Origin: Lysobacter lycopersici
Lineage (GTDB): Bacteria > Pseudomonadota > Gammaproteobacteria > Xanthomonadales > Xanthomonadaceae
DNA: 64,000 nt
Assembly (NCBI RefSeq): GCF_007556775.1
Contig: NZ_CP041742.1
Coordinates: forward strand, 124,001 to 188,000
Direction: 5' to 3'
A program made the translations under genes and the position numbers. The notes under the pieces are model-generated. The model ran no database searches, was not told the DNA's origin, and was given only the letters and a program-made list of their open reading frames with translations. Positions 10,775 through 58,007 of this stretch are shown here, in pieces. How positions within the stretch are numbered: position 1 is the first letter of the stretch; each line of letters opens with the position of its first letter.

Positions 10775-10855
10775 TTGTCATTCTGAACGCAGTGAAGAAC
10801 CTGCTTTTCATCAGCAGACGAAAAAGCAGGTCCCTCGCTACGCTCGGGATGACAT
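10775..10855. repeat. Palindromic intergenic repeat (GTCATTCTGA... type)
   Basis: The left arm GTCATTCTGAACGCAGTGAA with AACCTGCTTTT pairs imperfectly with the right arm AAAAGCAGGT and CTCGCTACGCTCGGGATGAC, giving a long interrupted hairpin. It fills the gap between the permease stop (10764) and miaA (10865). The TGTCATYCTGA...GGATGACA format is a widespread REP-like or small MITE-like element in proteobacteria. Confidence 0.75.
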
Positions 10856-10864
10856 GATCGAAAG

Positions 10865-11872
10865 ATGAGCGCCGATATCCGCCCATCCGCCGTTGCGGTG
10901 ATGGGCCCGACCGCGTCGGGCAAGACGGCGTTCGCGCTGGAACTGGCCGAACGCTTCGATGGCGAGATCGTCAGCGTCGATTCGGCGCTGGTCTATCGCG
11001 GCCTCGACATCGGCGCGGCCAAGCCGATCCGCGAAGAGCAGGCCCGCGTTCCGCATCATTTGATCGACGTGCGCGAACCGTGGCAGCCGTATTCGGCCGC
11101 GGAATTCGCCGAAGACGCGCGTCGCGCCGTCGACACGATCCTTGCGCGCGGAAAACTGCCGATCCTCGCCGGCGGCACCGGCCTGTATTTCCGTGCGCTG
11201 CTGCACGGACTCGCCGACATGCCGGAAGCAGACGAAGCGATGCGCGCCGAAATCGCGTCCGAAGCCGAGGCGCTTGGTTGGGCGGCCTTGCATGCGCAAC
11301 TCGCGCAGGTCGATCCCGAAGCCGCTGTGCGCATCCACGCCACCGATGCGCAACGCATCCAGCGCGCGCTGGAAGTGTTCCGGCTCACGGCAAAGCCGAT
11401 CAGCGCATGGCAACGCGAAGCGCGCGGCGAACGCCTGCCGGTGAAGGTGCTGAAACTCGTCCTCACGCCGCAGGATCGCGCGACCTTGCATGCACGCATC
11501 GAAGCGCGTTTCGACGCGATGCTCGCCGCCGGCTTCCTCGACGAAGTGCGTGCGCTGCGCGATCTGCCTGAATTGCGTTCGCATCCCCGCCCGCTGGAGT
11601 TGCCGGCGTTGCGTGCGGTGGGGTATCGGCAGGCATGGGAATATCTGGATGACCCCTCTCCCGGCGCTACGCGCCACCCTCTCCCTCAAGGGGAGAGGGA
11701 AAAAACTTTCCGCGACCACGCGATCTTCGCCACGCGCCAGCTCGCCAAGCGCCAGTTCACCTGGCTGCGCGGCGAAACCGATGCGCTGTGGTTCGATCCT
11801 GCGACGCAGCGCACGCAACTGGACGCCGCGACAACGGCTTTCCTCGGCGCCACGCGCAGGCCGGTCGGGTAA
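10865..11872 (+). CDS. miaA: tRNA dimethylallyltransferase
   Basis: MiaA transfers a dimethylallyl group to A37 of tRNAs reading UNN codons. The 335-residue product has the P-loop GPTASGKT at 14-21, the [16 protein letters not shown] block, the [11 protein letters not shown] motif and the late [15 protein letters not shown] motif. It is longer than the family norm of about 315 because residues about 264-279 are encoded by a CCCTCTCCC-type repeat lying in frame between the conserved [10 protein letters not shown] and ATRQLAKRQ segments. The Shine-Dalgarno site is poor. As in most gammaproteobacteria, hfq follows. Confidence 0.95.
11653..11700. repeat. CCCTCTCCC-type palindromic repeat inside miaA
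   Basis: The stretch starts CCCCTCTCCCGGCGC and ends CCCTCTCCC, TCAA, GGGGAGAGGG. It is the short form of repeats found between genes at 48373, 56509 and 57507. Here it lies inside the miaA reading frame and encodes [16 protein letters not shown] without breaking the frame. Confidence 0.85.
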
Positions 11873-11966: not shown

Positions 11967-12245
11967 ATGTCCAAGGGCCAGTCTTTGCAGGATCCGTTCC
12001 TGAACGCGCTTCGCCGCGAACGCGTGCCGGTGTCGATCTACCTCGTCAACGGCATCAAGCTGCAGGGCACCATCGAATCCTTCGACCAGTTCGTGGTCCT
12101 GCTGCGCAACACGGTCAGCCAGATGGTCTACAAGCACGCCATCTCCACCGTGGTCCCGGCACGCAATGTCCGCGTCGGCGCCACCGCGGCTACGGCCGCG
12201 GGCGACGACGGCGGTTCCGACGAAGGCGGCGACGAGGCGGAATAA
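11967..12245 (+). CDS. hfq: RNA chaperone Hfq
   Basis: Hfq is a hexameric Sm-like protein that anneals small RNAs to mRNAs. The 92-residue product has the Sm1 core ([37 protein letters not shown]) and Sm2 motif [12 protein letters not shown]; the C-terminal tail is alanine-rich then acidic ([14 protein letters not shown]). The ATG at 11967 is preceded by GGGGA at 11957-11961. It sits between miaA and hflX in the classical order. Confidence 0.98.
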
Positions 12246-27263: not shown

Positions 27264-27306
27264 GGCGGCATCCGGAAGCGCACGAGGCGCATGAAGGGGA
27301 TGCCCG

Positions 27307-27507
27307 CTCTGTCCTTCTGCCTGAGAGTTTGGAAACACGCGGCGGGGAGGGAGGGCCGCACGGTTTCTTGCCCCTTCGGCGCCGGCATCGCTTCATCCGA
27401 GGCGATGCCGATCTCTCCAGAGTGTGGTCACACGGCGGTCTTGGGCCTGAGCGATTCCGGGCGGTTGCGCCTTCGGCAGCGGCGCAGGCGCCGCTTCTCC
27501 CTCCGTG
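27307..27507 (-). ncRNA. Tandem glycine riboswitch upstream of gcvP
   Basis: Read on the reverse strand, two glycine aptamers follow each other. Aptamer 1 spans 27507-27431, closed by CACGG/CCGTG, and holds GGAGGGAGAAG, GCCGAAGGCGCAACC and CGCTCAGGCCCAAGACCG. Aptamer 2 spans 27422-27307, closed by CTCTG/CAGAG, and holds GGAGAGA, GGCGCCGAAGGGGCAAG and CTCTCAGGCAGAAGGACAGA. The linker is 8 bases. These match the known gcvT-type glycine riboswitch consensus. The expression platform must lie in the 43 bases before the gcvP ATG; such switches usually turn glycine-cleavage genes on when glycine is abundant. Confidence 0.95.
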
Positions 27508-47340: not shown

Positions 47341-48264
47341 TCAATCTCCAGCGGGATCGAGGTAAAAGATCGGGGCCGGCCGGAATTCGCCACTGGCGTA
47401 AAGCCCGGCGCCGTTCGCCGACCAGGCCAGGGCTTCGGCCTGCGGCAGCAGCGCCGGCAGGGGCTCGATCCGCGGCTTGCGCGCGACCACCTGTGCCCAG
47501 GTTTCGCCGGTCTTGCGCGGGTAGAACAGCACGTCCTGGTAGGTGAGGACGGCCAGGGTGCGGCCATCCGGCGACACGTCGGCGGCGGTGACCTGACCGA
47601 CCAGCCGCGCGGCCTTCGGGCGATCGCGCAGCGACTGCGCATCGGCCTGCGGCACGCCGGCGAGGCTGCCGATCCGGCGCGCGACCACGGTCGCGCCGGC
47701 GGCAGGCCGCAGCGGCACTTCGAACAATTCCGGCGGATGCCGTTTCTTCGAAATCAGCAGCACCTTGCCAGCGGCCGCGTCGACGAACGCCGCCTCGCAG
47801 TCGCGCGGGCCGTCGGGCCAGCGGAACGACACCGACCACGCCGGGCGCAGCGCCGTGTCCTCCAGCGATGCCGGTTCCTCGACCACGTGCAATTGCAGCG
47901 TGCGGCGCAGGCCACCGTTGTCGCCGGTGTCCGCGATCAGGATGTAGTGCTTGCCGTCTAGGTCGAACGCGTCGAGGTCTTCCCAGTCGGTGTTCGCCAC
48001 GCCTTCCACTCGGTCGCTCGCGAGGAGGCTGCCGCGTGGGCTCACCGCATACAGCACCGGCGTGTTGCCGCCATCGTTCTCCACCCACAGCACGTCCGTG
48101 AGGCGGCGTGATGCGGCCATGCCGCTCACTTCGCCGAGAGCGTCGTCGACCATCAGCCCGGACAGGCGCGCGAACGGCTCGCGTTCGTCGCCGCAACCGG
48201 CGAGCAGCGCGAGCGCGAGCGCGCAGGCGGGGCATCCGATGCGGGGGAAGGTGGATCGGCGCAT
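47341..48264 (-). CDS. Lipoprotein, probable beta-propeller
   Basis: A 307-residue protein with a lipoprotein signal (CPACALALALLAGCGDE; lipidated Cys in LLAGC). Blade-like repeats follow: SGMAASRRLTDVLWVENDGG, LDAFDLDGKHYILIADTGDN, VTAADVSPDGRTLAVLTYQD and ALAWSANGAGLYASGE. The ADTGDN and VSPDGRTLA forms suggest a phytase- or SdiA-regulated-like propeller of unknown function. Start at ATG 48264 rather than the upstream in-frame codons, which precede no signal peptide. Confidence 0.8.
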   Translation of the reverse strand: MRRSTFPRIGCPACALALALLAGCGDEREPFARLSGLMVDDALGEVSGMAASRRLTDVLWVENDGGNTPVLYAVSPRGSLLASDRVEGVANTDWEDLDAFDLDGKHYILIADTGDNGGLRRTLQLHVVEEPASLEDTALRPAWSVSFRWPDGPRDCEAAFVDAAAGKVLLISKKRHPPELFEVPLRPAAGATVVARRIGSLAGVPQADAQSLRDRPKAARLVGQVTAADVSPDGRTLAVLTYQDVLFYPRKTGETWAQVVARKPRIEPLPALLPQAEALAWSANGAGLYASGEFRPAPIFYLDPAGD

Positions 48265-48372
48265 GCGCGAAGCATCGCAGATCGGCGCGTCCTGGCGCAT
48301 CCCGTGGTGCGGGTACACTGGTCGCCGAACTTTGCCCGCCGCGGCGCGGTCGAAACCGTGATGCACAAAAAT

Positions 48373-48426
48373 GCCCCTCACCCGCCTTCGGCACCCTCTC
48401 CCCATCGCATGCAATGGGGAGAGGGA
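48373..48426. repeat. CCCTCTCCC-type palindromic repeat
   Basis: Starts CCCCTCACCCGCCTTCGGCA and ends CCCTCTCCCCAT ... ATGGGGAGAGGG. It lies 20 bases before the hypothetical gene at 48447, so its purine-rich right arm is in that gene's leader. Confidence 0.85.
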
Positions 48427-48446: not shown

Positions 48447-48827
48447 ATGAACGACAGTACCGGTTACGCCGTGTTCTTCTTCCCGCCCGCGCTCGAGGCG
48501 CTGGGCGATGCGATCAAGCCCTACCTGCAGGAAGGCCCGCTCGGGCCGCACGTGCCCTGCCGCGAAGTGGACACCGCCGGTGCCTTCATCGAGATGACGC
48601 TGGAAGGACAGACCGCGAAGGGCGAGAAGGTCGCGCTCGAATTGATGGTGCCGGGCAGCATGGTGCGCATGATCGTGTCCGCGCACAGCGACAGCGAATT
48701 CGGCTTCTACGTGCGCGGCAAGCCGGCGATGCTGGAGCCGGGCATGACCACGACCGCGGCTGCTTCGCAACCCGCGCCGCAATCCGCGCCGGACGCGGTC
48801 GTGGCGAAGGACGCGCCGAAGTCGTAG
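48447..48827 (+). CDS. Conserved-looking hypothetical protein
   Basis: A 126-residue protein with no signal peptide or membrane segment. It opens TGYAVFFFPPALEALGDAI and has a beta-rich middle (AFIEMTLEGQTAKGEKVALE, GFYVRGKPAMLEPGM) and a low-complexity Ala/Gln/Pro tail. AAAGGAT lies upstream of the ATG. Function unknown. Its stop is three bases from the convergent bpt stop. Confidence 0.65.
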   Translation: MNDSTGYAVFFFPPALEALGDAIKPYLQEGPLGPHVPCREVDTAGAFIEMTLEGQTAKGEKVALELMVPGSMVRMIVSAHSDSEFGFYVRGKPAMLEPGMTTTAAASQPAPQSAPDAVVAKDAPKS

Positions 48828-56645: not shown

Positions 56646-57380
56646 TCAGCGCTGGTCGCCGACGACGTCCGGGCGATCCGGGCCCAGCCATTTGTAGATC
56701 AGGCCGCCGATGATGCCGCCGACGATCGGCGCGACCCAGAACACCCACAGTTGCGAAATCGCGCCGGAACCGGCGAACAGCGCGACGCCGGTGGAACGCG
56801 CCGGGTTCACCGAGGTGTTCGTCACCGGAATGCTGATCAAATGGATCAGCGTCAACGCGAGGCCGATCGCGATCGGCGCGAACCCGGCGGGAGCCTTGCG
56901 GTGGGTCGCGCCCATGATCACCACGATGAACATCGCGGTCATCACGATTTCGCACAACACCGCCGCGGCCATGCCGTAGCCGCCGGGCGAACGCGCGCCA
57001 AAGCCATTCGTGGCGAATGCGCCGGCCGCGTTCGGGTCGATGGCGAAGCCCGGCGCGCCGCTGGCGATCTGGAACAGGATGAAACCGGCGAGGATGGCGC
57101 CGAGCACCTGCGCGACGATGTAAGGCACGAGGTCGCGGGTGGGGAAGCGGCCGCCGGCCCACAGCCCGAAACTCACCGCCGGGTTGAAGTGCGCGCCGGA
57201 GATGTGGCCGAAAGCGTAGGCGCCGGTGAGCACGGTGAGGCCGAAGGCCAGCGACACGCCGAGCAGGCCGATGCCGAGCGGGTTGCCGTCGCCACCGAAG
57301 TTGGCGGCGAGCACGGCGCTGCCGCAACCGCCGAGCACCAGCCAGAACGTTCCCAGGAATTCCGCTGCGAATCGCTTCAT
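56646..57380 (-). CDS. aqpZ: Aquaporin Z
   Basis: A 244-residue water channel with six membrane helices and two re-entrant NPA motifs: [12 protein letters not shown] and [10 protein letters not shown]. The [19 protein letters not shown] segment with its His and Arg matches the narrow water-selective filter of E. coli AqpZ, which argues against a glycerol facilitator. The ATG at 57380 follows GGGAGCGACAC; the frame extends upstream only through repeat sequence. Confidence 0.95.
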
Positions 57381-57434
57381 GTGTCGCTCCCCGATGGCCG
57401 GACGCCCGGCCTGCGAGCGGAGCATAACCCGCTG

Positions 57435-57492
57435 TTGTAGGAGCGGGCTTGACCGCGACTGCTCCTGTGGGAGCGACTTCAGTCGCGACAAA
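57435..57492. repeat. GGAGCG(ACTTC)-type repeat pair
   Basis: Two adjacent arms in direct orientation, TTGTAGGAGCGGGCTTGACC and TGTGGGAGCGACTTCAGTCG, lie upstream of aqpZ. The first resembles the minC-linker sequence at 37478 and the second resembles the element at 35939. Confidence 0.8.
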
Positions 57493-57506: not shown

Positions 57507-57623
57507 GCCCCTCACCCGCGTAACTCGCGCCATCCATGGCGCTCGCCCTTCGGGCCAGCTTCGCTGTTCGCGGGCGCTCCTGCGCCCGCAGTCGGCCACC
57601 CTCTCCCTCAAGGGGAGAGGGAA
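57507..57623. repeat. CCCTCTCCC-type repeat, long form
   Basis: Starts CCCCTCACCCGCG, contains inner stems (CATCCATGG..., GCGGGCGCTCCTGCGCCCGC) and ends CACCCTCTCCCTCAAGGGGA followed by GAGGG. It abuts the stop codon of the lipoprotein gene at 57624 and has the same terminal sequence as the copy inside miaA. Confidence 0.85.
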
Positions 57624-58007
57624 TTATTGGACCTGCAGCGTGGCCTTGGGCGCGTCGCCGCGTTCGAGCGCTTGCAGGGTGATGGTGCGGCCGTTGGCGT
57701 CGAAGGATTTGGGATCGAGGTTGGTGTGCAGGACGAAGTCCTGCGCGGTCATCGCGTTCGCCGGTGTCCAGCGCATGGCGATGGTGGCATCGCCGGCCCA
57801 GACGCATTGGACGTCGGGGCGGCAGCGGGAATCGCCGTTGAGTTTGATGTAGTCGAGGCGGCTGTTGTCGGCGAGTTGTGCGGATTGGCTGGGCGCGAGG
57901 GTGATGGTGCTGCCGTCGGCGACGGTGTTCGCATCCGCCGCGGGCGAGGCCGGCGCGGTGGTGCAGGCGGCGAGGGCGAGGAAGGCGAGGGTAGTCAGCA
58001 GGCGCAT
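57624..58007 (-). CDS. Small lipoprotein of unknown function
   Basis: A 127-residue protein with a lipoprotein signal (MRLLTTLAFLALAACTTAP; Cys15). The mature part is beta-rich with LAPSQSAQLADNSRLDYIKL and two cysteines (SRCRPDVQCVWAGDATIAM) likely to form a disulfide; such proteins are common in xanthomonads and are unassigned. Its stop adjoins a repeat. Confidence 0.8.
   Translation of the reverse strand: MRLLTTLAFLALAACTTAPASPAADANTVADGSTITLAPSQSAQLADNSRLDYIKLNGDSRCRPDVQCVWAGDATIAMRWTPANAMTAQDFVLHTNLDPKSFDANGRTITLQALERGDAPKATLQVQ

Follow-up and report, generated by a model that had tools for sequence, protein, structure and literature searches.

The miaA gene of Lysobacter lycopersici contains, in frame, a stretch of 50 nucleotides that is identical to an intergenic sequence of the same genome. 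Very probably the stretch arose by insertion of a palindromic repeat of the BoxC/PIT/TM-like kind, whose dispersed copies stand mainly between genes, and was then retained in an exposed loop of the protein, one of a few permissive loops that are shared with related species. The analysis covers a window of 64,000 nucleotides (the whole stretch of DNA presented above), the genome from which it comes (G000, one contig of 2,596,073 bases, completeness 99.98) and a set of relatives that appear to belong to Thermomonas, a sister genus.

The course of events that we propose is as follows. An element in the order C-rich block, small hairpin, C-rich block, loop, G-rich block would spread its copies through the genome, and selection would remove most of those that land in genes. 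The consensus of the element has no stop codon in four of the six frames, so that the reading frame can remain open where a copy lands in a loop that tolerates it. This, together with an encoded peptide that is short, rich in Pro, Gly, Arg and Glu and probably disordered, would be why copies in surface loops or linkers survive. The miaA insert would have stayed because it is in frame and falls between two helices, in an exposed loop, and, as few loops qualify, related species would come to be occupied at the same ones.

A palindromic repeat in frame within miaA

The features concerned are listed here by their positions in the window.
10865-11872, + strand: miaA, complete, insert-bearing, 335 amino acids, tRNA dimethylallyltransferase by TIGR00174, Pfam IPPT and Foldseek
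11653-11702, + strand: repeat element within miaA, in frame, its 50 nt identical to the intergenic copy G000:C1:2165199
11654-11701, + strand: insert peptide, residues 264-279 of MiaA, by translation
11654-11662, + strand: first CCCTCTCCC block (the third strand, if the element is read as a triplex motif)
11663-11675, + strand: small hairpin GGCGC-TAC-GCGCC between the C-rich blocks, of a sequence that differs among copies
11677-11699, + strand: main hairpin, CCCTCTCCC-TCAAG-GGGAGAGGG
11967-12245, + strand: hfq-like gene downstream, which we take to be Hfq from the start of its reading frame (first 34 residues)

Read from 11653 to 11702, the element consists of C, CCCTCTCCC, the small hairpin GGCGCTACGCGCC, A, CCCTCTCCC, TCAAG, GGGAGAGGG and AAA. 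The copy at 2165199 with which it shares its longest exact match, 50 nt, lies outside the window and was called intergenic; to 53 copies from Thermomonas the longest exact match is 16 nt. An earlier note on this DNA had placed an in-frame repeat at 11653-11700 and held that a coding gene had absorbed it. The repeat is real, and the 50-nt identity with intergenic DNA bears out the absorption; the peptide itself is encoded at 11654-11701, one base away from where it had been put. The RNA of 11640-11715 folds with -29.9 kcal/mol (z -3.44), a value that none of 200 shuffles equalled. Rfam returned no structured RNA above its gathering cut-off at the element, its two matches of 14.9 and 16.5 bits (cut-offs 72 and 71) being at chance level.

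The rest of the protein is a normal MiaA. The TIGR00174 profile matches residues 10-313 with 291.2 bits, far above its cut-off and over nearly its full length (profile positions 2-286 of 288), and Pfam IPPT matches with 283.3 bits. All the invariant columns of a 19-row alignment are retained. The enzyme would be active and the peptide neutral for it. In the AlphaFold2 model (mean pLDDT 88.4), whose closest solved structures by Foldseek are those of Escherichia coli MiaA with tRNA (best 2zm5_A, TM-score 0.81 by query length), the insert sits in an exposed, low-confidence loop, residues 263-274, flanked by the helices 252-262 and 275-302. The pLDDT is 63 for residues 261-270 and 77 for 271-280, and the model lets the second helix begin with the final five residues of the insert.

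The core of this loop has 21 residues in L. lycopersici versus 9 in most relatives. The comparison of MiaA lengths that had been suggested thus came out as foreseen: relatives are 12 residues shorter at exactly the position of the insert. A net gain of 12 codons from an element that codes for 16 is not a clean insertion in its present form, and part of the native loop codons must have been lost, at insertion or afterwards. Upstream, between a permease-like gene and miaA, an inverted, repeat-like sequence (GTCATTCTGAACGCAGTGAAGAA ... TCGGGATGACA) is found at 10775-10856.

Copies in the window and in the genome

On both strands of the window CCCTCTCCC occurs eight times, versus 0.35 expected (none of 100 shuffles reached 8). 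Two related copies lie between called genes.
48375-48425, + strand: related copy between the divergently transcribed called genes 47341-48318 (-) and 48447-48827 (+)
57509-57621, + strand: related copy with a long middle, between the called genes 56646-57380 (-) and 57624-58007 (-)
Both had been cited, at 48373 and 57507, as the same repeat as that of miaA. They are real and related, and they stand between genes as claimed, but their middles differ: the C-rich blocks CCCTCACCC and CCCTCTCCC are 10 nt apart in the first and 81 nt apart in the second, and the two C-rich blocks of the miaA copy are 14 nt apart. Close to the second copy, at 57434-57492, stand GTAGGAGCGGGCTTGACC / GTGGGAGCGACTTCAGTCGCGAC, which resemble REPs of the GTAG type. 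Elsewhere in the window a glycine riboswitch aptamer (61 bits) occupies the minus strand at 27299-27430.

Genome-wide, copies were counted with a strict hairpin pattern, CCCTCTCC-N3-12-GGAGAGGG, the loop range having been widened after a narrower pattern with a 3-nt loop gave three places only. The pattern finds 57 hairpins in the L. lycopersici genome, versus none in a reversed control; 16 of them were aligned to derive the consensus and the other 41 were listed only. Stop-to-stop frames around 21 copies of the middle motif were uninformative in this G+C-rich genome, and genes were therefore called with a custom caller based on codon usage. By these calls eight of the 57 hairpins fall within genes and the other 49 between them, while random placement would put 51.9 in genes if the whole genome is as densely coding as the window (91%). 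This depletion suggests that selection acts against most genic copies. Within genes the hairpins interrupt miaA, murL, murU, tsaB and priA (two sites), the PriA insert being read from locus L002 since the gene coordinates in L053 were faulty. Similar peptides are thus met again in other proteins of the same genome, as the search proposed for them had anticipated. Two more hairpins stand at gene 3′ ends, in lgt and in a glycosyltransferase-like gene; there (L064, L198) the repeats encode the final residues and adjoin the stop codon.

The genome holds two Y1_Tnp genes, and the repeat does not flank them as a REP mobilised by a RAYT flanks its Y1 transposase gene: there is no CCCTCTCC within 1.5 kb of the gene at L164, and a single one at the very edge, about 1.5 kb off, at L165. 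A RAYT as mobiliser was therefore set aside for want of flanking copies; it might act in trans. Palindromes of another kind, GTGGGAGC, adjoin the Y1 transposase gene at L165.

Loops occupied in Thermomonas and their origin

MiaA was detected in 194 of the 198 sampled genomes of the family. Its loop was read in the fetched loci, four distant ones excepted (L154, L157, L158, L159), and the segment from AVGY to QLAK has 33 residues in 105 of the 117 parsed loci and is longer in 12, with some genomes counted twice. Long loops derived from the repeat belong to L. lycopersici (L004) and to five Thermomonas genomes, G166 (L023/L086), G200 (L077), G208 (L078), G210 (L082/L145) and G182 (L079/L095); all six hold three or four repeat blocks at no more than one mismatch. 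Six other long loops (L013, L015, L016, L022, L040, L074) hold no block at one mismatch and were left uncounted. That of L016 (PALPAPERE) resembles the repeat as a peptide only. The loop of L077 joins two repeat halves of different type and a spacer, 46 residues in total.

The same holds for other proteins. Among the Thermomonas genomes read, repeat blocks occupy the MiaA loop in five of 24, the MurL loop in five of 22 (G050, G166, G182, G208, G210), the PriA C-terminal site in four of 20 (G166, G182, G208, G210), the MurU loop in one of 17 (G213) and the TsaB loop in one of 22 (G201). A recount by DNA blocks bore out the occupied sites; the fetched genomes that fall outside these counts number three for MurL, seven for MurU, three for PriA and three for TsaB. 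Overlap probabilities computed with 2400 genes were set aside, as they disregard gene length and kinship. Empty loops are near-constant in length, 9 residues in most MiaA, 25 or 26 in MurL (31 in G212), 17 in MurU and 27-29 in PriA. TsaB differs: 8 of the 21 Thermomonas loops without a block have 11-23 residues, the others 9 or 10, so that a long loop proves nothing by itself. The 31-residue MurL loop of G212 holds one block, possibly a remnant, and was left uncounted; those of G149 and G203 hold one chance-like block each. G212 (L081/L092) sits within the insert-bearing clade and has no strict hairpin in its whole genome; its MiaA loop is canonical, its PriA loop is one residue longer than most and the one block of its MurL loop may be a worn one.

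Strict hairpins number 57 (L. lycopersici), 35, 30, 26, 13 and 4 in the six genomes with a repeat-derived MiaA loop, and 16 of the other 20 Thermomonas hold from none to four. Many hairpins yet no MiaA insert are found in G213 (17), G050 (11), G202 (9) and G201 (8). The earlier note would have been undone by the same peptide in repeat-free genomes. It was not seen there: the three hairpin-free Thermomonas (G130, G206, G212) have the short MiaA loop. In four Thermomonas genomes followed hairpin by hairpin, called genes contain 12 of the 53 listed copies (G182, 6 of 21 listed out of 35 in all; G200, 2 of 13; G050, 3 of 11; G201, 1 of 8). The genes are valS, hrpB, murL (G182 and G050), mfd, tsaB (G201), one more near its 3′ end, and a gene for an E2-like dihydrolipoyl acyltransferase that carries a hairpin in both G182 and G050 and whose best NCBIfam score is below cut-off.

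If a composite repeat had been inserted once, long ago, in the common ancestor of L. lycopersici and Thermomonas, and had later been partly deleted or, in most species, wholly lost, this same-site pattern would be plain inheritance. We regard this as rather unlikely. It agrees with the MiaA of G200, which has both repeat halves where others have one or the other, and with G182, G208, G166 and G210, which fall in the same clade and each have an insert in MiaA, MurL and PriA alike. The tests allow a single origin of the MiaA inserts within Thermomonas (p 0.43 for the five-gene tree and 0.11 for that of MiaA), and likewise a MiaA clade without G212 (p 0.16). For the MurL inserts of G182 and G050 the best match of each is the other, above the remaining copies in their own genomes. 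Transfer, an ancient insertion that was lost elsewhere, or elements that are alike would each account for this; G050 stands far from the G182 clade, and the five-gene tree speaks against grouping it with the insert clade (p 1.5e-5).

Several observations go the other way. The miaA insert is identical over its 50 nt to a present intergenic copy, whereas no Thermomonas MiaA is more than 80% identical to that of L. lycopersici; the insert must therefore be young or gene-converted. Inheritance would also need many precise losses, since the empty MiaA, MurL, MurU and PriA loops are so constant in length. Six of the seven L. lycopersici inserts score best against their own genome (56 other copies, neighbours within 3 kb excluded) rather than against the 53 Thermomonas copies, the miaA insert with 100 versus 69. 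The exception is the PriA C-terminal insert, which scores 87 against G182 and 72 against its own genome, with exact matches of 37 and 36 nt respectively; for the murL insert the exact matches are 18 nt in its own genome and 16 nt in Thermomonas. Hairpins of 21 nt make up 3 of 57 copies in L. lycopersici, 21 of 21 in G182, 12 of 13 in G200, 11 of 11 in G050 and 1 of 8 in G201.

Tree tests that include L. lycopersici lean the same way. In AU tests a single clade of insert-bearing MiaA with L. lycopersici and G212 has p 0.030, and one uniting the MiaA of L. lycopersici with that of G200 has p 0.012; these groups were chosen with the trees already in view, which makes p values near 0.03 weak. A much lower value (p 6.7e-87) came from a one-clade test that omitted the nested insert-free rows L081/L092, and the fairer test supersedes it. 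With unread genomes scored as empty, and G205 and G211 dropped for missing data, the fewest changes on the five-gene tree (24 genomes) are four for miaA, four for murL, three for the PriA C-terminal site, two for murU and two for tsaB. A count of eight changes for MiaA overstates repeat gains, because its insert label took in L013, L015, L016 and L040. The C-rich-first MiaA inserts of L. lycopersici, G166 and G200 stop at nearly one position before TTCCGC, a common end that shared descent or site preference would also produce.

The N-terminal linker of PriA gives a different kind of evidence. It holds CCCTCTCCC in L. lycopersici, versus an unrelated translated palindrome in seven Thermomonas loci picked for their peptides (L281, L285, L286, L289, L291, L296, L300), of the type GGGGTC(A/G)GAGTC or GGGGTCAGGTTC, also GGGGTCGGAGTC..., and worn in L289. 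A search of the window for GGGGTCRGAGT with one mismatch found no more than chance. One insertion cannot explain both palindromes, and unrelated elements thus reach this linker independently. Our judgement is that most shared sites saw at least two gains, which is not proven for each, and many of these sites would have been hit independently; the evidence decides only in part between this and an ancient insertion held in common and lost in places.

Starting from retention of an inserted repeat in permissive loops, one may go further and see the BoxC-like palindromes as natural insertion probes, with, in this family of bacteria, a few fixed loops (in MiaA, MurL, MurU, TsaB, PriA and the E2-like enzyme) invaded repeatedly, through site preference or usefulness. 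The unrelated family would then also be an invader of the PriA linker, and usefulness might lie, for example, in mRNA hairpins placed in miaA ahead of the hfq-like gene. This extension is speculative and we consider it unlikely. That the insert is functional outright, its peptide modifying MiaA or its mRNA hairpin tuning miaA and the downstream gene so that selection keeps the site, has little chance of being right. The strong RNA hairpin, the occupation of the same sites in several species and the hfq-like gene next downstream would suit it; the peptides nevertheless vary in type and length among species, related species lack them, the genes that carry inserts have no single function in common, and confidence in the model of the MiaA loop is low. 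It is very improbable that miaA is decaying or misassembled, as an insert in a conserved enzyme gene might suggest: the frame is full-length with its invariant columns and a family score far above cut-off, the sequence comes from one 2.6-Mb contig of completeness 99.98, and inserts of the same kind recur in other assemblies. A native variable loop, rich in Pro, Gly and Arg by chance, can be dismissed almost outright, since, although some relatives do have longer loops that lack a repeat block (L013, L015, L016, L022, L040, L074), the miaA insert is identical to intergenic DNA over 50 nt, shows three repeat blocks and has the symmetry of a hairpin.

Likeness to known repeat families

The nearest relatives of the element are the motifs named BoxC, PIT or TM_ECO. 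According to the part of the source consulted (PMC4666352), these are G/C-rich intrastrand triplex motifs, linked to genome instability and always intergenic in E. coli MG1655, where close inverted pairs of two types have been described. Two of their blocks, CCCTCTCCC and GGGAGAGGG, are identical in the miaA element. The minus strand reads CCCTCTCCC-CTTGA-GGGAGAGGG and so shows the C-rich stem of 9 nt, loop of 3-6 nt and G-rich stem of 9 nt of the definition, as excerpted from PMC4666352. The second loop, of 3 nt before a second G-rich stem in TM_ECO, has 14 nt here (TGGCGCGTAGCGCC) and could form a hairpin of its own, which makes the miaA copy a relative of TM_ECO outside the strict sense. 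The MiaA inserts of G182 and G210 (CCCTCTCCC-CCC-GGGAGAGGG-GTT-GGGGTGAGGG) fit the published layout, 3-nt second loop included. The difference lies in the location: the source's E. coli copies are always intergenic, whereas those found here also lie within conserved genes. A widespread family of repeats, known from E. coli as intergenic, can thus turn into protein sequence of conserved enzymes.

Repeats within genes of other bacteria offer a second comparison. Rickettsia belongs to another class of proteobacteria. Its palindromic elements (RPEs) lie in frame inside unrelated protein genes, where they seem to be tolerated, in the accessible passages of PMC10969869 and PMC3733652. The repeat of L. 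lycopersici, a palindrome that reads in frame within conserved genes and occurs between genes as well, is of this kind by description, not by descent; the first RPEs reported, in those passages, are of some 150 bp, while the present element has about 50 nt and is mostly intergenic. REPs, defined as seldom overlapping genes in the excerpt of PMC12306157, are nonetheless recorded inside some. Those of the GTAG and CGTC types lie within DNA- and RNA-handling genes, such as recB of Xanthomonas or truA/truB of S. maltophilia, and in recB different REPs occupy about one site in two species (extracts of PMC3733652). The likeness to the present repeat is in this insertion; those extracts describe further genes of that functional class entered at sites that differ, while in the present case the sites in five proteins are shared. 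The conserved core of the 16 aligned copies has no GTAG or CGTC tag at either end, and neither CCCTCTCC nor GGAGAGGG occurs in the text of PMC3733652. Among the matches listed in the openly licensed literature, none reports CCCTCTCCC-type repeats inside MiaA, MurL, MurU, TsaB or PriA, MiaA being the one of these names queried.

These inserts draw a natural map of the loops where conserved enzymes take some 8-38 extra residues, the recurrent ones marking places where proteins tolerate inserts, and sister species with and without inserts make the movement of the repeat, and its limits, testable. Intragenic repeats are already known, as RPEs of Rickettsia and as intragenic REPs; what is new is a BoxC-like family within conserved genes, and its recurrence at sites shared between species.
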